Source: a virus. Taken from it: a stretch of DNA of 64,000 bases. A model generated the notes under the pieces. The model did not search any database and was not told the origin of the DNA. It was given only the letters and a program-made list of their open reading frames with translations. This document shows positions 3,369 through 63,864 of the stretch, in pieces (position 1 is the first letter of the stretch; each line of letters starts with the position of its first letter). The stretch covers positions 124,001 through 188,000 of the IMG/VR virus record IMGVR_UViG_3300044632_001003. One strand, written 5' to 3'. Position numbers and translations under genes: made by a program.

Positions 3369-4025
3369 ATGGCATACTTTAGAGAACTACCAGATTTAGA
3401 ATATCAATCACCATTCTCGGATAGAAACTCTTCATTAGATTATGTAAGGGCAAAAAATATCTTTAGAAGAGTAAAAATCAGAGACGACTTACAGAAAGTT
3501 TTTACAATATTCAACAAATATACCATTTCTGATGGTGCAAGACCTGATACAGTTGCAGAGGCACTATATGGAAAGTCAGAATTTGACTGGGTTGTACTCA
3601 TCAGTGCTGGGATAGTTAATGTAAGAGATGAGTGGCCACTCTCAAACTATGATTTGTACAATTACAGTTATGAAAAATATGGAGATAATCTCAATGACAC
3701 TAAATTTTATGAAACAATAGAAGTCAGAGATCCTAATGGAAGATTAATTCTCCCTGCTGGAAAAGTTGTTGATGCTAACTTTACAATTCCAGACCCAGCG
3801 AATAAAGTTCAAAATTTACAACAATCTAAAGTTGTTGTAGCAATTAATAATTATGAATATGAAGTTCGTAAGAATGAGGCAAAAAGAAACATTTATGTAT
3901 TAAAATCAGAATACTTACCAAGTTTCTTAACTGATATTAGAAAGATTATGACATATACAGAATCATCTCAATTTATTGATTCTAAGTTAATTAAGGCATC
4001 TAATACTAGAATCAAGTCACCATAA
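3369..4025 (+). CDS. 53: Baseplate wedge subunit gp53
   Basis: 218 residues (T4 gp53 is 196). Family features: N-terminal FRELPDLEY, the helix-turn segment KNIFRRVKIRDDLQKVFTIFNKYTI, and the hallmark DTVAEALYGKSEFDWVVLI followed by DEWPLSNYDL, in which a LysM-like fold lies in T4 gp53. In T4, gp53 staples neighbouring wedges together. The C-terminal segment (NEAKRNIYVLKSEYL) is also family-typical. Last gene of the plus block and convergent with gp32. Confidence 0.88.
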   Translation: MAYFRELPDLEYQSPFSDRNSSLDYVRAKNIFRRVKIRDDLQKVFTIFNKYTISDGARPDTVAEALYGKSEFDWVVLISAGIVNVRDEWPLSNYDLYNYSYEKYGDNLNDTKFYETIEVRDPNGRLILPAGKVVDANFTIPDPANKVQNLQQSKVVVAINNYEYEVRKNEAKRNIYVLKSEYLPSFLTDIRKIMTYTESSQFIDSKLIKASNTRIKSP

Positions 4026-4045
4026 AAAAGGGGGCATATGCCCCC
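4024..4045 (-). terminator. Rho-independent terminator of gp32
   Basis: Perfect hairpin, GGGGG and CCCCC arms around CATATG. On the minus strand it is followed by six T residues, so it ends gp32 transcripts. On the plus strand it lies just after the gp53 stop but has no T tract. Confidence 0.88.
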
Positions 4046-8761: not shown

Positions 8762-8769
8762 TTATTTAT
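8762..8769 (-). promoter_or_regulatory. Late promoter overlapping the thyX stop
   Basis: ATAAATAA on minus. Its TAA is the thyX stop codon (8762-8764). It lies 22 nt before the next ATG at 8739. Confidence 0.55.
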
Positions 8770-9400
8770 TCCACTCTAACGCTTCTGAGACTGATGGAAA
8801 TTGTTCGGTAAATATTTTCTTACACTCAAGAGCAATATCCATGTGTTCTTTCTGAGTTCCATTTGCAGAACGAAGATTGATATAATGAATCCATGACCTG
8901 CATGATCCCGACATATAAATGCGTGTAGGCGTCGCTAAGGGCAGTACAAACCTTGCACACTCCTTTGCTACTCCATGAGCAAGAAGTTCCTTATAGAGTT
9001 GCATAGAGTGTGCAAAATGGTCTTGAATCTTACTCTGTAGAGTCAGTTTCTCATACTCAGAAATGTCGTCAATAGAGTTCTGACGATTCTTGGTATCTTG
9101 ACGACGAAGTTCAGGTACAGGAATATAATCGCTCAACAAAGAAGAATCTGCATAACGCTGCGAAAATTCTTGATATGTGAAAGAACGGTGCCTCAAAATT
9201 TGAGCTGCGATACCACGATTTGTTTCGATCTCAAGAGTCATAAAAGACTGCTCAAAAACAGACCAATGATTATGCTTAATGCAATAAGCAAGCAACTTGG
9301 CATAGTTTTCGTTGTCTTGATTCGCAGGGTTGCTAACTCTAGCAACATATGCCATTGTTTTTTCTGCATCTGGGGTCACGCTAATGAGTTTTACTGTCAT
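8762..9400 (-). CDS. thyX: FAD-dependent thymidylate synthase ThyX
   Basis: 212 residues. The ThyX signature RHR-x7-S is present as RHRSFTYQEFSQRY (about residues 71-84). HWSVFEQSFMTLEIET before it and the later ECARFVLPLATPTRIYMSGS and SWIHYINLRS stretches are also characteristic; the last two build the dUMP/FAD pocket. It makes dTMP from dUMP using methylene-tetrahydrofolate and NADPH, replacing T4 td. Marine cyanobacteria also carry thyX. Its ATG overlaps the stop of the preceding small gene. Confidence 0.95.
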   Translation of the reverse strand: MTVKLISVTPDAEKTMAYVARVSNPANQDNENYAKLLAYCIKHNHWSVFEQSFMTLEIETNRGIAAQILRHRSFTYQEFSQRYADSSLLSDYIPVPELRRQDTKNRQNSIDDISEYEKLTLQSKIQDHFAHSMQLYKELLAHGVAKECARFVLPLATPTRIYMSGSCRSWIHYINLRSANGTQKEHMDIALECKKIFTEQFPSVSEALEWNK

Positions 9401-9564
9401 TTCTTTCCAAATCCTTTTGATGTTTTTGCTTCGAGTTCTGAAAGTTCTTCTTCCAGAATCCTTAATTGTGATTTCATTTCAATCAATTGCTCAGCAGAAT
9501 ATAAATGCTCTTGTTTAATCAATCTACGGAGCAATTTCATCATTTTTCTTGCCCTATTAGTCAT
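9397..9564 (-). CDS. Small basic coiled-coil protein upstream of thyX
   Basis: 55 residues, start ATG at 9564, found by reading the strand directly. The protein is a basic helix (NRARKMMKLLRRLIKQEHLY) followed by an amphipathic Glu/Leu helix (MKSQLRILEEELSELEAKTS) with heptad-like spacing. Its TGA overlaps the thyX ATG, and its start lies 8 nt inside the preceding small gene. The double overlap supports it as real. Function unknown; a small dimeric nucleic-acid-binding protein would fit. Confidence 0.62.
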   Translation of the reverse strand: MTNRARKMMKLLRRLIKQEHLYSAEQLIEMKSQLRILEEELSELEAKTSKGFGKK

Positions 9565-9730
9565 CTAAATCAGAATCCTCAAAAATTTCGTCGTAATCTA
9601 ACATTGGTCTTTTTCTGACTTCTGGATTTGTATAAGAATATGCAGATACATCAGAATAAACTTCTGCTTTCAGAGAATCAACCAAGAGTTCTAGATTACG
9701 GACAATAAGTTTTAGTTTGTCTTTATCCAT
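9557..9730 (-). CDS. Small acidic hypothetical protein
   Basis: 57 residues from ATG at 9730: a helix (DKDKLKLIVRNLELLVDSLK), a Tyr/Ser middle (YSDVSAYSYTNPEVRKR) and an acidic end (LDYDEIFEDSDLDD). It is the first gene after the composite promoter at 9752-9780, with a leader of roughly 15 nt, and is coupled to the next small gene. No recognisable family. Confidence 0.58.
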   Translation of the reverse strand: MDKDKLKLIVRNLELLVDSLKAEVYSDVSAYSYTNPEVRKRPMLDYDEIFEDSDLDD

Positions 9731-9751: not shown

Positions 9752-9780
9752 ATTTTAACATAAAAAAAGGAGGGAATCAA
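9752..9780 (-). promoter_or_regulatory. Sigma70 promoter whose -35 lies in a terminator loop
   Basis: TTGATT (9775-9780), 17 bp, TAAAAT (9752-9757) on minus. The -35 is the loop of the terminator at 9762-9786 and the spacer contains its T tract. Confidence 0.6.
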
Positions 9781-9786
9781 CCCTCC
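9762..9786 (-). terminator. Rho-independent terminator
   Basis: GGAGGG and CCCTCC arms with loop TTGATT, followed by seven T on the minus strand. Ends the small-gene transcript 9793-10500. Confidence 0.85.
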
Positions 9787-9792
9787 TTTACT

Positions 9793-9894
9793 TCAAGCAA
9801 CTTGTGGTTGCTTCGCCATATTCAGTTGTGCGTTATGAAGGAGTTTTTCCTTTTTTGCTTTGAGTTTGAGATAGCGAACGAAGTAAGTGTTCAT
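9793..9894 (-). CDS. 33-residue protein with strong ribosome binding site
   Basis: ATG at 9894, six bases after GGGAGGT. The product (NTYFVRYLKLKAKKEKLLHN then AQLNMAKQPQVA) is a basic amphipathic helix. Its ATG overlaps the TGA of the preceding gene (AAATGA), and the stop is directly before a terminator. Strong translation signals make it likely to be expressed despite its size. Function unknown. Confidence 0.6.
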   Translation of the reverse strand: MNTYFVRYLKLKAKKEKLLHNAQLNMAKQPQVA

Positions 9895-16579: not shown

Positions 16580-18754
16580 TCAGGTTGCAACCCTGGATAA
16601 GTTATAAGAATGTACGGACGATTGAGTGGAGTATCTTCCAGGATCGAATGAAGCAGGCCAAGTTTGGTTACCAACATAAAATAGTCTATCATCCTGACAA
16701 ATTGCCCACCATCCATCACCCTGAGATCCTTGTATTGATGCAATGGCTGAGAACCAGTTTGCTTGCAAGTTGCCTGCGGACTGAGTAGCATCAAATTCCC
16801 ATGGAAGTTTGTTTCGGTTATCCATTGTTTGACGGCCACTTCTAAAACTGACACCCTTTGCTCTACCTGGATCTGTTGTGGTATTACCACCGATAGTAAG
16901 ACATCTTTGGTTAGAAGTTAGGAATAATCCAAGTCTCCATTCATCATTTCCAGTACCAACTCTACTAATATCAATAACATCATTAGAACCACTATAAACT
17001 GGAACTGGGTATTGAAGATTTGTGTTTGACCATGGAAAATCACCAGTATTTTGGTTTTCTGCCAGGAGTTGATCAAGTGAAGTAAATCTATGGTAAGATT
17101 GCACACCAACACCATAAATCATTCCCGTACTTCTCTGTTTAATAAACAATCTTGGATTATTCTGGTCATTACTTAGCCAAAAATCTTCAACATCATTGTA
17201 TAAGTCTGTAATATTCCATAAGCTCCTAAGACCAGATCCTGACACCTCAAGAGATCTAGCTCTATCCCACCAAACTTTTTGCATTGGAGAAAATCCTGTT
17301 CCACCATTTGGCTCATCCCCATCGTATGAACCAGAACTATAAAGGTTGGAACCAATCCAATTAAGAAGTCCAGCCATGTGCAAAACACCATCATTTGTAA
17401 GGACAACTGTAGTATAGTAAGTATTATATCCAGCAGTTGCTATTTTTTTAATTCCGCCATGCTTTTCCCAATTATATAAAACTTTTCTTGGAGCACCAGT
17501 GTATTGGTCATTACCAACACCAAGTTGGTCATTACCATTCCATCCCCAACCCCATAGATTGCCATCTTCATCTTGAGCAAACCCATACTGATAGTTACCA
17601 CCAGCTAACCAAAAATCTAAAAGTTTTCGGTTATCAAAATATTGCTGAGGAATTCTAGCTGGAACATAGCTATTAAACCAGTTATTATTATACCTAAAGT
17701 TTCTACCTAGTCCAGAGTATCCGTTATATCCCCAAGTCCATAGCCGACCATCAATATCCAGAGCACCATTAACACTACTTGAGTTGTTAGCATTAGACGA
17801 AGAACTTGTTCCAATCTTAATTGCCTGAATATCCCTTAAAAATCCCTGACCTCTACTCCCTTGAGAAGCCTGATACTGTTGAATTTGTTGGTTATAATCG
17901 AAACCACCACCAGTATTGTTTGTTCGACCAACTCTTCTCGAATAATATCTGTTAGTTGTTCCACCATCACCATGCTCCCCTGAACCCATCCAACCAGCCC
18001 AGAAAACTTCTCCATTATCAAATAAGAATCCATACATGTGTTGGTCATCACCAACGATTTGAATACATCTTGGTCTTGACCAAGTTGTACCCTGAGTTAC
18101 ACTAGAGTTTCTATAATTATCATAGTGGTCCCACCACTGGAATGTTGATTCAGCTGGATTATGTTGAGACGCACCAACTCCATATTCAGACCCACCATAT
18201 CCATAGCTACTATGGCGACCTATATGAACTGCTTCAAACTCACCATTAATAAACGAATATCCCTGGTTAGATAAAGCACCATTATCTATTCTTCCAGGAA
18301 TATGCCCCATATTTCTATCATTCCAACCCATAGGGTTGCGATTATTAAATTGTAGGATTCTATTTTCTTTATTCTGATTTGAACTAGCACTAATTCTTTG
18401 CCAATATGTTGTTGCTGATGTTCTTTCGTAGATAGGATGAATCATCCTACCATGCTTCATACAAACATAACGATCGCCATTATAATTTACTACATCTCCT
18501 GGATAGTAAGTTCCATTCTCCATCCACTGACCAGTCCACATATAACCAGAGGAATATCTATCCCATCCCTGCGTATCATTTTCTGGTTTATATTTTTCAC
18601 CATATAAATTATTTTCAGCATACTTATCGGTTTTACAAATATAAGCGGCACCATTAACTCTTATAACATCATTTTTAGTATAAGAAACTCCTTCTCTCCA
18701 CTCTCCACGGTAATTTAGAGTTAAATTATTAGCAAGACTAGTTAGCTTTTCCAT
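16580..18754 (-). CDS. RCC1-propeller adhesin paralog 1
   Basis: 724 residues. Two N-terminal modules (residues ~15-45 and ~70-100) have the pattern of carbohydrate-binding repeats: YRGEWREGVSYTKNDVIRVN then AAYICK; GQWMENGTYYPGDVVNYNGD then RYVCM. From ~210 the protein is a seven-bladed RCC1-type propeller with repeats such as GRLWTWGYNGYSGLGRN, GNLWGWGWNGNDQLGVGN and GVLHMAGLL. Two more such genes follow on the same strand. A distal tail-fibre or receptor-binding role is inferred from the adjacent fibre genes and binding modules. Confidence 0.8.
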   Translation of the reverse strand: MEKLTSLANNLTLNYRGEWREGVSYTKNDVIRVNGAAYICKTDKYAENNLYGEKYKPENDTQGWDRYSSGYMWTGQWMENGTYYPGDVVNYNGDRYVCMKHGRMIHPIYERTSATTYWQRISASSNQNKENRILQFNNRNPMGWNDRNMGHIPGRIDNGALSNQGYSFINGEFEAVHIGRHSSYGYGGSEYGVGASQHNPAESTFQWWDHYDNYRNSSVTQGTTWSRPRCIQIVGDDQHMYGFLFDNGEVFWAGWMGSGEHGDGGTTNRYYSRRVGRTNNTGGGFDYNQQIQQYQASQGSRGQGFLRDIQAIKIGTSSSSNANNSSSVNGALDIDGRLWTWGYNGYSGLGRNFRYNNNWFNSYVPARIPQQYFDNRKLLDFWLAGGNYQYGFAQDEDGNLWGWGWNGNDQLGVGNDQYTGAPRKVLYNWEKHGGIKKIATAGYNTYYTTVVLTNDGVLHMAGLLNWIGSNLYSSGSYDGDEPNGGTGFSPMQKVWWDRARSLEVSGSGLRSLWNITDLYNDVEDFWLSNDQNNPRLFIKQRSTGMIYGVGVQSYHRFTSLDQLLAENQNTGDFPWSNTNLQYPVPVYSGSNDVIDISRVGTGNDEWRLGLFLTSNQRCLTIGGNTTTDPGRAKGVSFRSGRQTMDNRNKLPWEFDATQSAGNLQANWFSAIASIQGSQGDGWWAICQDDRLFYVGNQTWPASFDPGRYSTQSSVHSYNLSRVAT

Positions 18755-35611: not shown

Positions 35612-35726
35612 TCTTTGATCCAATAACAAAAACAAGTTCCTTCAGTGTTATAAAAATATAATGGATCTCATCGTAATAAGTAATGTCTTGATCTCTTTCA
35701 AGAAAGTGTTGTATCTTTTTTAGCAT
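35604..35726 (-). CDS. 40-residue hypothetical protein
   Basis: ATG at 35726, one base after the preceding stop (TAA-A-ATG). The product starts LKKIQHFLERDQDITYYDEI and ends HYIFITLKELVFVIGSKNK. It is mixed basic/hydrophobic with a hydrophobic C-terminal helix (FITLKELVFVIG). The tight coupling is the support. No family recognised. Confidence 0.5.
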   Translation of the reverse strand: MLKKIQHFLERDQDITYYDEIHYIFITLKELVFVIGSKNK

Positions 35727-35727
35727 T

Positions 35728-36024
35728 TTACACAACCACTGGTTCTGCTTGACTTTCTGGAAGTTTGATTTGTGGCAGTTCTTTCACTTCCCAAGAACCG
35801 CCAACTCCACCATCCATATTCACAACAATCTCATTAGTTGGTAATGCCTTTGGAATCTCAACATCCACAACAGGTCCCATCAGAAACTTATTACGAGTAT
35901 AAGTTCTGTTATGTGGATCAAAGGAAACCATTTCAAGAGCATCAGACTCTTCGCCACAGTCCAGAATCTTTCTTCCAGTTCTTTTATCAATCACTGAAAA
36001 ATACTCATCACGATACTTGTTCAT
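35728..36024 (-). CDS. Hypothetical protein of the aldolase operon
   Basis: 98 residues, two halves: NKYRDEYFSVIDKRTGRKIL, CGEESDALEMVSFDPHNRTY and then a strand-rich MGPVVDVEIPKALPTNEIVV and MDGGVGGSWEVKELPQIKL. It has the look of a conserved cyanophage protein but I cannot name it. Overlaps the preceding 41-residue gene by 17 nt. Confidence 0.62.
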   Translation of the reverse strand: MNKYRDEYFSVIDKRTGRKILDCGEESDALEMVSFDPHNRTYTRNKFLMGPVVDVEIPKALPTNEIVVNMDGGVGGSWEVKELPQIKLPESQAEPVVV

Positions 36025-36884: not shown

Positions 36885-36911
36885 AAAAAAGGAGGAGTCA
36901 AGCCCCTCCTT
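36885..36911 (-). terminator. Terminator after the psbD operon
   Basis: AAGGAGG/CCTCCTT arms and six T on minus. The TGA of the 44-residue gene lies inside the loop, which also reads CTTGACT. Confidence 0.82.
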
Positions 36912-37032
36912 GTGAATATGCAGGTTGCAGGATTCCTCCATCTTGGTCATCATCGTCATCGTGGTCTTCAGTAAAAATAACGATAAGTGCGAATGCGAAG
37001 ATGACCAAGTATAGAAGATACTGTGCGGTCAC
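36898..37032 (-). CDS. 44-residue membrane protein coupled to psbD
   Basis: GTG start at 37032 overlapping the psbD stop (GTGA). One hydrophobic helix ([17 protein letters not shown], residues ~4-20) is followed by an acidic segment (EDHDDDDDQ) and a Gly-rich tail. It ends within a terminator. The size and topology resemble a photosystem-type single-helix subunit or assembly factor, but no family is recognised. The coupling to D2 makes co-expression certain if translated. Confidence 0.68.
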
Positions 37033-38090
37033 AGTGCGTTGCCTCTTGGTAGAACTTCCTCTGGGAACACAAAGTTCTCATGAGGTTGATCTACTGGTGC
37101 CATCCACGCTCTAAGTCCCTCATTAAGGAGGATATTCTTCGTATAGAACGTCTCAAACTCTGGATCCTCTGCCGCTCTAATCTCCTGAGATACAAAGTCG
37201 TAAGCACGGAGGTTAAGAGCAAGACCGATGATGCCGATAGAAGAAGTCCAGAGACCCATAACTGGAACGAAAAGCATAAAGAAGTGCAACCAACGCTTAT
37301 TACTAAAAGCAATACCGAAGATCTGAGACCAGAATCGGTTCGCAGTAACCATAGAATACGTCTCTTCCTCTTGAGTTGGTTCAAATGCTTTGAAAGTGTT
37401 TGCTTGATCACTATCTTCAAATAACGTGTTTTCTACTGTTGCTCCATGAATCGCACAGAGTAGTGCTCCACCCAGAATACCAGCAACTCCCATCATATGG
37501 AAGGGGTTGAGAGTCCAGTTGTGGAAACCCTGAAGAAACAGAAGGAACCTGAAGATAGCAGCAACTCCAAAAGAAGGTGCGAAGAACCAACTGGATTGAC
37601 CAAGAGGATACATCAAGAATACAGAAACGAATACTGCGATGGGACCAGAGAATGCGATTGCGTTATAAGGACGGATACCTACAAGACGGGCAATCTCAAA
37701 CTGACGAAGCATAAACCCTATAAGAGCGAAGGCTCCGTGGAGTGCCACAAAAGGCCAGAGTCCCCCAAGTTGGCACCACCTGACGAAATCCCCTTGAGCC
37801 TCAGGACCCCAGAGCAGAAGAAGAGAATGACCCATAGCGTCTGCTGGAGTACTAACTGCCGCAGTAAGAAAGTTTGCACCCTCAAGATAGGAACTTGCCA
37901 ACCCGTGAGTATACCAACTCGTAACGAAAGTTGTCCCAGTAAGCCAACCACCAAGAGCAAGGTAAGCAGTGGGAAAAAGAAGAAGTCCAGACCAGCCAAC
38001 AAAAACGAAACGGTCTCTCTTAAGCCAGTCGTCGAGTACATCGAACCATCCCCTTTGTTGAATTGGTTTTGAAAGTGTAGAAGAAGTCAT
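37029..38090 (-). CDS. psbD: Photosystem II D2 protein
   Basis: 353 residues, full length. Recognised by [20 protein letters not shown], the five-helix body, [20 protein letters not shown] and the end [16 protein letters not shown]. The ligands are all present, including the pheophytin/quinone helix [20 protein letters not shown] and the non-haem iron His in [16 protein letters not shown]. Phage D2 replaces the host protein during infection so that electron flow goes on. Preceded by AAAGGAGG 3 nt from ATG and by a dual promoter. No frameshift or intron seen. Confidence 0.98.
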
Positions 38091-38642: not shown

Positions 38643-38664
38643 AAAAAAGACCCCTTTCGGGGTC
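38643..38664 (-). terminator. Rho-independent terminator of psbA
   Basis: GACCCC/GGGGTC arms with GAAA loop and six T on minus. A textbook terminator directly after psbA. Confidence 0.95.
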
Positions 38665-38686
38665 TCCGTTAGAAAATTCTAACTTA

Positions 38687-39769
38687 TCAACCAATCGCAG
38701 GAGCAGTCAAGGCAACAGGAGTTGCTTCGGCAGCAGCGAGGTCCAGAGGAAAGTTATGGGCGTTTCTCTCATGCATCACTTCCATTCCGAGTCCAGCACG
38801 GTTCAGGACATCTGCCCAAGTGTTGAGCACACGACCCTGACTATCCAGGATACTCTGATTGAAATTCAGTCCGTTGAGATTAAAAGCCATCGTGGAAACA
38901 CCAAGAGCGGTGAACCAGATGCCTACAACAGGCCAGGCAGCAAGGAAGAAGTGCAGCGAACGTGAGTTATTGAACGAAGCATATTGGAAAATAAGGCGTC
39001 CAAAGTAACCGTGAGCAGCAACGATGTTATAGGTCTCTTCTTCTTGACCAAACTTGTAACCATAGTTCTGGGACTCGTTCTCAGTGGTTTCACGAACCAG
39101 CGAGGAAGTAACCAGAGAACCGTGCATTGCACTGAACAGAGAACCACCGAAGACACCAGCAACTCCAAGCATATGGAAGGGGTGCATCAGGATGTTGTGC
39201 TCTGCCTGGAACACAAGCATGTAGTTGAAAGTACCAGAGATACCCAGAGGCATCGCATCAGAGAACGAACCTTGACCGAAAGGATAGACCAGGAACACTG
39301 CACTCGCAGCAGCAACAGGTGCGCTATAAGCAACACAGATCCATGGACGCATACCAAGACGGTAGGAAAGTTCCCACTCACGACCCATATAAGCATAGAT
39401 ACCGATCAGGAAGTGGAACACAACCAGTTGGAAAGGACCACCGTTGTAAAGCCACTCATCTAGGGAAGCAGCTTCCCAGATGGGGTAAAAGTGCAGTCCA
39501 ATAGCATTGGACGAAGGAATCACAGCACCAGAGATGATGTTGTTTCCGTACATGAGTGAACCAGCAACGGGTTCACGGATACCATCGATATCCACAGGGG
39601 GAGCACCGATGAATGCGATGATGAAGCAAGTCGTAGCAGCAAGCAGACAGGGAATCATCAGAACGCCAAACCAACCCACATAGAGGCGGTTATCGGTTGA
39701 AGTAACCCAGTTGCAGAACTGTTCCCAAATATTCGATTGTGATTTTTGACGTGAAAGAGTAGCAGTCAT
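38687..39769 (-). CDS. psbA: Photosystem II D1 protein, E130-type
   Basis: 360 residues, complete and uninterrupted by an intron. Markers: [20 protein letters not shown], the donor-side [19 protein letters not shown], the acceptor His region [20 protein letters not shown], and C-terminal [11 protein letters not shown] before a short processed tail ([16 protein letters not shown]). Position 131 here, equal to 130 in the standard numbering, is Glu (GREWELSYR), as in the high-light D1:2 form. The protein is one residue longer at its N-terminus. Supplies D1 for repair of photodamaged photosystem II while host synthesis is shut off. Confidence 0.98.
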
Positions 39770-39930
39770 TTGTAATAAACAGGTAGTAAGACCATCAGGG
39801 AAATGGTGGAGATACTATGCTCCCCGCACCCTTAGCGGGGATATGAGAGACGTAATTTATACACCCATAGGTCTCGGTTAGCGGGTGTTGCAAACATTAA
39901 GGATTTGTTACATTCTTTAACGTGTTGATG

Positions 39931-39964
39931 TATTTATATTAACACAAAAAAACACCCCCGTCAA
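39931..39964 (-). promoter_or_regulatory. Dual early/late promoter of psbA
   Basis: TTGACG (39959-39964), 17 bp, TAATAT (39936-39941), merged with an exact late box TATAAATA (39931-39938), on minus. The -35 is in the loop of the terminator at 39945-39971. A second TATAAATT lies nearer the gene. Confidence 0.65.
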
Positions 39965-39971
39965 GGGGGTG
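39945..39971 (-). terminator. Terminator of the virion operon 39991-42915
   Basis: CACCCCC/GGGGGTG arms with TTGAC in the loop, then seven T on minus. Confidence 0.93.
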
Positions 39972-39990
39972 TGCCAGTTTTGGAATTGTC

Positions 39991-49409: not shown

Positions 49410-49604
49410 TCAGAAGATTCCGAAGAAGAACTTGTCAGTGAGAGCATAAGAAATAAACCCAGCAATAATGCCGACCATTGCCCAACGCCCATTAGTTTTC
49501 TCCTTTACTTGATTGGGCGTATCCATCCCATAATTTTCATAGTACATTACGGGCTCTTTAGCAAACATATTTTGCTGCCCATACTCATTCGTTGTTACAG
49601 TCAT
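49410..49604 (-). CDS. hli: High-light-inducible protein (HLIP) 2
   Basis: 64 residues. The LHC-like helix is EKTNGRWAMVGIIAGFISYA followed by LTDKFFFGIF, with the E-x-x-N-x-R pair that binds chlorophyll. The first 30 residues (VTTNEYGQQNMFAKEPVMYY) form an N-terminal extension. First gene of the redox operon, about 29 nt downstream of the -10. It differs from HLIP 1 by length, suggesting separate acquisition. Confidence 0.93.
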   Translation of the reverse strand: MTVTTNEYGQQNMFAKEPVMYYENYGMDTPNQVKEKTNGRWAMVGIIAGFISYALTDKFFFGIF

Positions 49605-49632
49605 CGTTACATTCGTTAAGAATTGTTACACA

Positions 49633-49661
49633 ATTATATAGCAAAAATAAAGGGGCGTCAA
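49633..49661 (-). promoter_or_regulatory. Sigma70 promoter of the hli-petF-prx operon
   Basis: TTGACG (49656-49661), 17 bp, TATAAT (49633-49638) on minus. The -35 box is the loop of the terminator at 49643-49670. Confidence 0.78.
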
Positions 49662-49670
49662 GCCCCCTTT
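49643..49670 (-). terminator. Terminator of the large glycan operon
   Basis: AAAGGGGGC and GCCCCTTT arms around TTGAC, then ATTTTT on minus. Ends transcription from 63457 to 49707 and holds the -35 for hli. Confidence 0.82.
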
Positions 49671-62058: not shown

Positions 62059-62855
62059 AGAAATTCAAAGTTACCAAATGGATAATCAACTGTTGATTTA
62101 TTATAGCATTCTCCACCAAACCAATTTTTGGGGGCAATTACTTTTTTACTTTTTGCTAACCATGCACCCCACCAAGAGAATGATGAATTTGCAATGATGT
62201 GATAATCGCATAATGACATTAAGCAAAGATCAGCATCGGTTGTGTTTTCTTCTGATATCAAAAACCTATCATCTTTAAATAAATCCTGCTCTTTACACCA
62301 AGATTCATCATCAGAAAAAACAATAACAGGAAGTTCTGGTAGTTTAGAAAGTGCTTCCTGATAATAACTAATTGGTTGCACAGGATGATTTGGATTAGAG
62401 GTATAATCTCCTCTACGAATATGTAAAGAGATTACTTCACTATCAAAATTTTCTTTAAGAAATTCTTTACAATTAGAATACAACTCTTCATTAAATCTAA
62501 AGTCTTCTCGTATCTCATCTTCAATATGCTTGAAGTATTTTTCGGTTTGAAAGTATCCCATTAAATCTACATTATCTGGGCAATTGATGAATAATTCCTC
62601 ATCAAATTCATGCTTTCTTTCCCAAAAAGTATTGGCATCCTGTAGAGCACAATCATTATTTTTTTCTATATTTTCAAAAACATCGTATAAAATAACATCA
62701 GAATTTTTGACATTATCATCATGCTGCCCAAAAACATATCTAGGTGGAATGATAAATCCATATCCCCTATTTCTAGCAATTCCTTTTAAAGAAGCATATT
62801 GAAACATTTGATTGGCAAGTCTTCCAAGATTGCCAATATGATTGAGTGATATCAT
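62055..62855 (-). CDS. Family 11-like glycosyltransferase (alpha-1,2-fucosyl type)
   Basis: 266 residues. The GT11 block is IRRGDY-type: VISLHIRRGDYTSNPNHPVQ, with SISYYQEALSK next, IVFSDDESWCKE, and HIIANSSFSWWGAWLAKSKK plus APKNWFGG. HIGNLGRLANQMFQYASLKG is the N-terminal nucleotide-binding G-x-x-N-x-x-F-Q. Donor is probably GDP-fucose or another GDP-sugar, which fits the GDP-fucose synthase-like gene at 55402. ATGA overlap at both ends. Confidence 0.92.
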   Translation of the reverse strand: MISLNHIGNLGRLANQMFQYASLKGIARNRGYGFIIPPRYVFGQHDDNVKNSDVILYDVFENIEKNNDCALQDANTFWERKHEFDEELFINCPDNVDLMGYFQTEKYFKHIEDEIREDFRFNEELYSNCKEFLKENFDSEVISLHIRRGDYTSNPNHPVQPISYYQEALSKLPELPVIVFSDDESWCKEQDLFKDDRFLISEENTTDADLCLMSLCDYHIIANSSFSWWGAWLAKSKKVIAPKNWFGGECYNKSTVDYPFGNFEFL

Positions 62856-63439
62856 ACTTTATAATTAAATGAAATAGTAACTCTTGGATCAGTATTAAGA
62901 CCAGGAGGAACCATATGAACAGTGGATGATTGAAAAATTAACAAAGAACGTTCAACTGGTTCTATAGAATATGAATCTGAATTATACTCATTTCTGATAG
63001 AATGTGGGGTACAGTAATAAAAATTAGGATGGTGAAATACTATAGGTGCAGATCCCTCTGGTCTTTTACAGAAATATACTCCACTAATAGAAGATGGTAA
63101 ATGATGATGAAACTCTTGACTGTTTTTATTAGTATAAACATTCCACCACCACTCACTTAAAAAGAATTTATGATGGTCACAATTTAAAAATTTTGCGTAT
63201 TCATTAACTTTAGTATTGATTCTTTCAAATAGTAAGTCAAAAATTTTATTCTCATACCCAATATTAAATGAATTTTGTGGGCTATTTGCTCCCGAATACC
63301 AGGAGTCTATCCCTCTACCTTTAACAACATCCTTTTCTTTTAGAATGTGTTGATATATTCTCATATTTTCTTCTTCAGAAATGAGATCGTATGACCGATA
63401 AACTGAAGTTGGAAACAATAAATGAATATTATCCTGCAC
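62852..63439 (-). CDS. 2OG-Fe(II) oxygenase-like protein (unusual start)
   Basis: About 195 residues. The family pattern is HLLFPTSVYRSYDLISEEEN at the start, EWWWNVYTNKNSQEFHHHLP with the first iron His, SSISGVYFCKRPEGSAPIVF, and LLIFQSSTVHMVPPGLNTD then RVTISFNY with the second His and the Arg. The frame to 63523 cannot be the start because the promoter lies inside it. No ATG follows: candidates are GTG 63439, ATT 63427 (AGGA 5 nt before) and TTG 63418. First gene of the operon. Confidence 0.75.
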   Translation of the reverse strand: MQDNIHLLFPTSVYRSYDLISEEENMRIYQHILKEKDVVKGRGIDSWYSGANSPQNSFNIGYENKIFDLLFERINTKVNEYAKFLNCDHHKFFLSEWWWNVYTNKNSQEFHHHLPSSISGVYFCKRPEGSAPIVFHHPNFYYCTPHSIRNEYNSDSYSIEPVERSLLIFQSSTVHMVPPGLNTDPRVTISFNYKV

Positions 63440-63463: not shown

Positions 63464-63492
63464 ATTATAATAAAAAAGGGAGTTGTTGTCAA
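63464..63492 (-). promoter_or_regulatory. Perfect sigma70 promoter of the large glycan operon
   Basis: TTGACA (63487-63492), 17 bp, TATAAT (63464-63469) on minus, both consensus. The -35 is part of the terminator stem-loop at 63472-63497. Start of transcription near 63457. Confidence 0.92.
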
Positions 63493-63497
63493 CTCCC
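63472..63497 (-). terminator. Rho-independent terminator, shared with the operon promoter
   Basis: GGGAGTTG/CAACTCCC arms, loop ACAA, then six T on minus. Ends the transcript of the upstream membrane protein gene. Confidence 0.9.
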
Positions 63498-63517
63498 TTG
63501 ATTCTTTTCAGGCTCGC

Positions 63518-63649
63518 CACCAATTCTTTGACTGGAAATTGGAAACCAGGCGGGAGAGAGTCCCATCCGCACCACTTGCTTTTTTATGGGAAAGCAAGAA
63601 ACCAGAAGGGGTCAAATTTGACTCCACCACTTGGTTTTAAGAAACCAAG
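63518..63649 (-). repeat. Two and a half tandem units with covarying hairpins
   Basis: The plus strand shows CACCA at 63518, 63570 and 63625, each followed by a hairpin. The stems read CCAATT/AATTGG, CTTGCT/AGCAAG and CTTGGTT/AACCAAG, so arms differ yet stay complementary. After each of the first two comes GAAACCAG, then a smaller stem (GGGA/TCCC, or GTCAAATTTGAC). Spacing is 52 and 55 nt. Overlaps the 3' end of the membrane gene by 13 nt. Likely a structured RNA element. Confidence 0.6.
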
Positions 63650-63864
63650 AAAAGTTGGGTTAACTTTGATATTTCGGTGATACCAAAGAATGCTATCAGA
63701 AATAGCACATCCCAGAGTTTGAGTTTGATAGCAAAAGGAATACCGAGTAGTCCCCCAATAAACTTTATTATCAAACCATTTTTGAAATCTCCCCACAACA
63801 TGATTTGATAACCAAGTAGGAGAAGAAAGTTCCCGATATACCTCAGGATACTTGTTTTAGACAT
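63637..63864 (-). CDS. Small integral membrane protein
   Basis: 75 residues with three hydrophobic segments: YIGNFLLLLGYQIMLWG, LIIKFIGGLLGIPFAIKL and LWDVLFLIAFFGITEI. Basic residues between them (RYIG, KNGL, KLK) would set the topology. It resembles small cyanobacterial/cyanophage membrane proteins that I cannot name. Its end lies in the first hairpin of the structural repeat. Confidence 0.68.
   Translation of the reverse strand: MSKTSILRYIGNFLLLLGYQIMLWGDFKNGLIIKFIGGLLGIPFAIKLKLWDVLFLIAFFGITEISKLTQLFLVS

Follow-up and report, generated by a model that had tools for sequence, protein, structure and literature searches.

The DNA analysed here (the window, 64,000 nucleotides) spans bases 124001-188000 of a 205,009-base IMG/VR record whose relatives are the T4-like cyanophages. 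Its minus strand holds nearly all of the genes and all four of the fused elements described below, each made up of a G+C-rich hairpin, then a T-rich tract and then a -10-like hexamer, with a -35 box (TTGATT, TTGACG, TTGACG and TTGACA at sites 1 to 4) in the loop or the loop-proximal stem and a -35 to -10 spacing of exactly 17 nt at every site. An earlier note on this DNA had reported these four sites with this spacing, and all of them are present at its coordinates and lie on the minus strand; the terminators near 4024 and 38643, which it took to be plain, are indeed free of a promoter (4030-4045 and 38648-38665). The G+C-rich hairpin and T-tract by which intrinsic terminators are recognised are found at the sites, with arms that covary between loci, and so are the features of a sigma70-type promoter, that is, hexamers 16-18 bp apart (here always 17) with a codirectional gene next.

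Site 1 reads AAAGGAGGG-TTGATT-CCCTCCTTT, 17 nt, TAAAAT. Its terminator hairpin (AAAGGAGGGTTGATTCCCTCCTTT, 9766-9789, dG -14.0; this and all features of the four sites given below are on the minus strand) is followed by a T-tract, with the -35 box TTGATT in the loop (9775-9780) and the -10 box TAAAAT 17 nt from it (9752-9757). A small upstream ORF (33 aa, 9793-9894) has its stop codon 3 nt before the hairpin, the ORF downstream (57 aa, phrog_878, 9557-9730) starts 14 nt past the predicted RNA start, and the downstream cluster includes a thyX-type thymidylate synthase gene (8762-9400). Site 2, ACACCCCC-TTGAC-GGGGGTGT, 17 nt, TAATAT, has the hairpin ACACCCCCTTGACGGGGGTGT (39952-39972, dG -14.9) followed by T7, a -35 box TTGACG that lies in the loop and the first base of the stem (39959-39964), and the -10 box TAATAT (39936-39941). 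A perfect match to the T4-late promoter, TATAAATA (39931-39938), overlaps this -10 box. Downstream of this fused promoter come a PhotoRC-II RNA (RF01717, 39807-39900) within the psbA leader and psbA itself, encoding photosystem II D1 (38687-39769). The promoters of sites 1 and 2 are weak, each matching the consensus at 9/12 positions (TTGATT 4/6; TAATAT 4/6).

Site 3 reads GGGGC-TTGAC-GCCCC, 17 nt, TATAAT; the hairpin GGGGGCTTGACGCCCCT (49651-49667, dG -10.6) runs into a T-rich tract, the -35 box TTGACG is in the loop (49656-49661), the -10 box TATAAT is at 49633-49638, and the gene downstream is hli, for a high-light-inducible protein (49410-49604). Site 4 consists of AGGGAGTTGACAACAACTCCCT, 17 nt, TATAAT, in which the hairpin (63477-63498, dG -13.4) is followed by a T-tract, the -35 box TTGACA occupies stem and loop (63487-63492) and the -10 box TATAAT is at 63464-63469. 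A wcaG RNA (RF01761, 63506-63606) ends 7 nt before this hairpin, and a 2OG-Fe(II) oxygenase gene, whose start codon is uncertain, lies downstream (62852-63430). Two further fused elements occur in the contig outside the window, at genome positions 83246 and 194623.

Two other observations concern the same stretch. A terminator hairpin at window position 36911 (minus strand), downstream of the second gene for a photosystem II reaction-centre protein (37029-38090), carries TTGACT in its loop and has no -10 box at the right distance; it may be an element in decay or one only half formed. Just past the fused promoters, the hli and psbA leaders both contain GAATGTAAC (about 49606-49614 and 39907-39915, minus strand), a string with three copies in the whole contig, counting either strand.

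Fused elements are enriched over chance

We compared the number of fused elements, with promoters called as consensus matches, against two null models. In the first, terminators are simulated that match the real ones in stem length, types of base pair, loop length and the first eight bases of the tail. Under it, 4 fused elements among the 12 strong terminators of the window compare with 0.34 simulated (P=0.001), and 29/202 strong terminators (14%) in 11 cyanophage genomes compare with 6.3 (sd 2.4, maximum 14 in 300 runs), so that the count across cyanophage genomes against shuffled controls proposed in the earlier note comes out in favour of the fusion. The second and harsher null swaps real tails among the terminators of the contig and gave a mean of 1.9 and never more than 5 over 300 runs, where 5 had been observed; since its extreme reaches the observed count, we take the window by itself as suggestive, and regard the 11-genome data and the orthologues described below as decisive. 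Among 160 related IMG/VR loci, which share ancestry, 84/304 distinct strong terminators (28%) were fused. The corresponding figures were 2/105 (1.9%) in the control set of T4, RB49 and KVP40 and 1/134 (0.7%) in 1.44 Mb of cyanobacterial host DNA. Syn9 has no fused element of the 17-nt register among its 13 strong terminators. Cultured phages in which such elements occur include S-PM2 (hli, 124301), S-SM2 (hli, 167141, and a wcaG site, 143541) and S-SKS1 (psbA, 28041).

The T-rich DNA that follows terminators often yields -10-like hexamers, and TTGA loops might arise at random, in which case the fused elements would be coincidental. T-rich tails do raise the rate of -10 boxes, which occur at the same offset in 23% of hairpins that lack TTGA or TTGC, and tail-swapping within one genome attains the observed count at its extreme. 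Against this, TTGAC is present in 54 hairpins and its reverse complement GTCAA in 5; in 48/54 TTGAC hairpins a -10 box lies 16-18 nt away, in 42 as a 5/6 match at exactly 17; and turning each hairpin into its reverse complement where it stands, so that stems and composition are unchanged, lowers the IMG/VR fused count from 84 to 33. With the excess over simulation, the low rates in the two control sets and the conservation of fused elements at thyX and hli, we consider coincidence highly improbable. Two other candidate origins were rejected: a preference for TTGA as a structural tetraloop, because 48/54 TTGAC hairpins also bear the -10 box, and descent from the host, in which only 1/134 terminators are fused.

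Conservation at thyX and hli and dependence on the upstream gene

Upstream of thyX, 57 of the 75 loci with enough sequence carry a fused element and 66 carry a terminator; several thyX loci that have lost the -35 box retain TGCTATAAT, an extended -10 box. Upstream of hli, 51/79 loci are fused. The hli promoter is present in 75/86 distinct loci, and persists as TTGACA-17-TATAAT in many loci that have no hairpin. At both genes the stem arms vary and covary between loci while TTGAC and TATAAT stay. Swapping arms among loci weakened the mean fold from -9.40 (own arms) to -7.50 (sd 0.23) kcal/mol at hli and from -11.64 to -8.09 (sd 0.25) kcal/mol at thyX, a comparison that ignores the relatedness of loci and in which the effect size counts rather than a P value.

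Whether hli has the hairpin depends on the orientation of its neighbour. Among 75 distinct loci, the hairpin is found in 50/62 whose upstream gene is codirectional and in 2/13 whose upstream gene is divergent (Fisher p=1.5e-5); with a single count per upstream-gene family, the figures are 13/5 and 1/5 (p=0.05). In about eight codirectional hli loci without a hairpin the upstream gene ends so close to the -35 box that hardly any space, or none, is left; in several the stop codon abuts the box or runs into it, and a 5' arm could not fit. An insulating terminator that arose on top of an older promoter would be expected to show the pattern seen at hli. This pattern also bears on the suggestion in the earlier note that the elements limit read-through, which gains indirect support because the RNA of the hairpin can form only in the upstream transcript and because the hairpin tracks a codirectional upstream gene. 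A crude genome-wide comparison of codirectional and convergent neighbours in 11 genomes found no difference between fused (19/3) and plain (75/7) terminators (p=0.44); gene maps in such comparisons are longest-ORF approximations.

The start codon lies 13-19 nt past the predicted RNA start in 18/44 elements, so that stop codon, terminator, promoter and leader fit into far fewer than 100 nt.

Late promoters, the psbA double promoter and a second register

The late promoter at site 2, upstream of psbA, has counterparts elsewhere: the T4-type late promoter (NATAAATA) is matched both at site 2 and in its cyanophage copies as TATAAATA. In the 11 cyanophage genomes, TATAAATA occurs within 12 nt of the stem at 20 terminators, against 0.2 expected, and 15 of these 20 begin exactly 5 nt past the terminator stem (examples are S-PM2 108063 and 136627, S-SRM01 168665 and 176267, S-SKS1 63738 and S-CAM1 122208, among others). 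We found no description in the searchable literature of a late promoter overlapping a T-tract or a sigma70 -10 box.

In 55/78 loci psbA has TTGACN-17 and then a -10 box sharing letters with a late box (most commonly TATGATAAATA); these overlapped sigma70 and T4-late promoters come from the psbA loci L018-L097. This contig has in addition a terminator hairpin laid over the sigma70/late double promoter. Wide conservation of that fused hairpin was considered and rejected: it is in the same place only in the near-identical locus L018 and in two others, L046 and L048, and L083 has it elsewhere. The conserved feature at psbA is the double promoter, not the fused hairpin.

Promoters also peak in a second register, just upstream of terminators, where the -10 box touches the 5' arm and the start codon often follows directly after the T-tract (TTTTTTATG), in genes such as glutaredoxin. 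The predicted RNA start in this register falls inside the 5' arm, and the promoter's own RNA therefore cannot form the full hairpin. Cases with an extended -10 box are L384:4247, L087:2131, L092:6106, S-SM2 168111, Syn9 168323 and S-PM2 138888, and elements of this register are often found downstream of psbA.

Structured RNAs beside fused elements

Structured RNAs were identified with Rfam covariance models, for which the gathering thresholds are 42 bits (RF01761) and 39 bits (RF01717). The wcaG RNA beside site 4 scores 100.7 bits and the PhotoRC-II RNA in the psbA leader 79.5 bits. Just upstream of the former, at 63615-63694 (minus strand), a degenerate wcaG-like match of 24.6 bits, below threshold, resembles a tandem relic.

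Both RNAs were described by Weinberg et al. 2010 (PMC2864571), where wcaG is a cis-regulatory riboswitch candidate in the leader of exopolysaccharide and high-light genes. The arrangement here differs from that description in that a terminator and a promoter intervene between the RNA and the gene. A terminator directly follows wcaG in 11/19 distinct loci, in 8 of which the -35 box lies inside that terminator, and a promoter starts at most 50 nt after the RNA in 11/19 loci, compared with 6.5% of random same-strand stretches. Either the terminator is the switch of wcaG, with the fused promoter as a bypass, or wcaG ends a separate upstream transcript. The 8/19 loci with a -35 box in the following terminator call into question the view of wcaG as a plain 5' leader. 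Fused elements place some long-known gene-control RNAs of phages in a different light, and make the leader role of wcaG a testable proposition.

A probable dual-coded operon boundary and its alternatives

Fused elements are present in this virus and in most of the sequenced relatives examined, as a shared stretch of about 40 letters. Their presence, enrichment, fixed 17-nt register, conservation at orthologous genes, arm covariation and, at hli, dependence on the neighbouring gene can all be read from the DNA itself. Each site is very probably a dual-coded operon boundary, in which a terminator is laid over a host-type -35 box and operons are insulated cheaply. RNA from the upstream gene would fold the stretch into an intrinsic terminator, and as double-stranded DNA the same stretch would serve as the host-type sigma70 promoter of the next gene. 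The -35 box of that promoter would be the hairpin loop or loop-proximal stem, as base identity is free in a loop, and its 17-bp spacer would be made of the 3' arm and the T-tract, the latter being tolerated there; the -10 box would then sit just past the T-tract. Judging from the box positions, the 3' end of the upstream RNA would fall about 7-9 nt beyond the stem and the 5' end of the new one about 24 nt beyond it. With the predicted start downstream of the hairpin, only the upstream transcript would contain hairpin RNA, and the new transcript would lack the hairpin and escape the terminator.

The genes insulated in this way would be early/middle and auxiliary genes (psbA, hli, the thyX operon, hsp20, glutaredoxin and 2OG oxygenases), and the purpose would be to shield them from codirectional upstream transcription with almost no extra DNA. 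Cyanomyoviruses have no alt, modA or modB, and their early genes are accordingly thought to be transcribed by host polymerase in its unmodified form (PMC2984593). We infer that these promoters are active, that transcripts do end at the hairpins in vivo, and that selection has favoured the elements for the insulation they give. If so, operon boundaries in this group of viruses, abundant in the sea and in fresh water, can be recognised by a simple rule, namely to look within the terminator for the next promoter; psbA and hli, photosynthesis genes of host origin, would be transcribed apart from their neighbours, which bears on their timing in infection.

Several other explanations deserve weighing against this dual-coded boundary. 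An inverted repeat around a -35 box is the kind of place where a repressor would naturally bind, and the hairpin might accordingly be an operator for a repressor or activator, with the T-tract incidental. We consider this very unlikely: pairing is conserved between loci while arm sequences are not, no conserved arm sequence was seen, and at hli the hairpin is missing beside divergent neighbours where the promoter is kept. A second reading draws on the promoter-early stem-loops (PeSLs), whose stem-loops are reported to terminate transcription in assays and whose copies are reported to mediate gene shuffling. These composite promoter-terminator motifs of T4-like myoviruses were reportedly described by Arbiol et al. 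in 2010 and Comeau et al. in 2014. The fused elements might likewise be mobile cassettes, copies of a repeated unit that let phages shuffle genes by homologous recombination. The ingredients are the same as those of PeSLs, KVP40 has five near-alike fused copies and S-SRM01 three alike ones (52015, 52419, 56767), and about 24 families are represented among the genes upstream of the hli element. The elements of this contig are, however, 40% alike outside the boxes, compared with 63% in KVP40, and their stems vary from site to site, leaving little homology for recombination; the mechanism has been judged unlikely for S-PM2 too (PMC4503421). Cassettes of this kind are thus an unlikely explanation.

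A further possibility concerns what becomes of the polymerase. After termination it may stay on the DNA and restart at the fused promoter, so that downstream output follows upstream transcription; the promoter, with its -35 box in the terminator, would recapture the released enzyme, and one operon would feed the next while their RNAs stay separate. In vitro, E. coli RNA polymerase re-initiates downstream after 37% of intrinsic termination events, and after 55% with added sigma70, and the authors expect the distance between terminator and promoter to matter (PMC6978380); here it is about 15 nt, and the hairpin is retained mainly where the upstream gene is codirectional. Plain insulation nevertheless fits the same data. 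Diffusion in both directions was reported (PMC6978380), which would make the overlap unnecessary for such a hand-over, a polymerase that lingered at the terminator would cover the -35 box, and RB49 has terminator and promoter apart. We regard this reading as quite unlikely, although, if it were true, genes at wcaG sites would respond both to the effect of the RNA on termination and to the upstream flow of polymerase. The interpretation put forward in the earlier note accordingly divides: fusion of terminator and promoter is borne out by the controls and by orthologous conservation, and the coupling of operons is no more than a physical possibility.

Comparison with known systems

Genes with their own signals are known from the morons of lambdoid phages, in which a gene is flanked by its own promoter and terminator (PMC1524935). 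In this contig psbA resembles a moron in being equipped with a promoter and a terminator of its own (38648-38665), but unlike in morons, the terminator at the start of psbA belongs to the upstream unit. Sigma70-type promoters of cyanomyoviruses, described for S-PM2 and Syn9 as TTGACA-17-TATAAT and thought to be used by the host polymerase (PMC2984593), have the same boxes as the fused elements; the difference from these early/middle promoters is that the -35 box here doubles as the terminator loop. Separately from these, we noted inverted-repeat spacers of 17 nt between -35 and -10 boxes without a T-tract, for example TTGACA-GGGGATCGGTGATCCCC-TATAAT, in RB49 (115005-115033, 117381-117409, 121708-121736 and 134521-134549), Syn9 (18628-18656) and Ma-LMM01 (35708-35736).

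The closest relatives of the fused elements are the PeSLs, with which they share the intergenic position in a T4-like phage and the combination of an intrinsic terminator with a sigma70-like promoter for the next gene. S-PM2, which has the fused hli element, has been searched for PeSLs, and few were found (PMC4503421). The most PeSL-like repeats that we saw in a cyanophage are the trio of S-SRM01, whose near-alike hairpin-promoter elements (GGGCACTTGA..CAGGTGCCC TTTCTGGTATAAT) form one alike group with a maximum identity of 0.88. The layout differs from that of RB49, where terminator, T-tract and a whole separate promoter stand in tandem in a dozen cases, with the -35 box 14-34 nt past the stem instead of inside the hairpin. 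The five alike copies of KVP40 do overlap: TTGAC is part of the hairpin, and TATTAT follows at 18 nt. Given the tandem PeSLs of RB49 and the overlapping copies of KVP40, the kind is a known one and its overlapping form exists outside the cyanophages. What sets the cyanophage elements apart from PeSLs is their fixed 17-nt overlap, their place at conserved orthologous genes, a hairpin that varies with gene order, and the dissimilarity of the copies, whose identity outside the boxes is 0.40 in this contig against 0.63 in KVP40. Judged by these features, we regard the fused elements as a compact, overlapping variant of the PeSL kind that is not derived from repeats.
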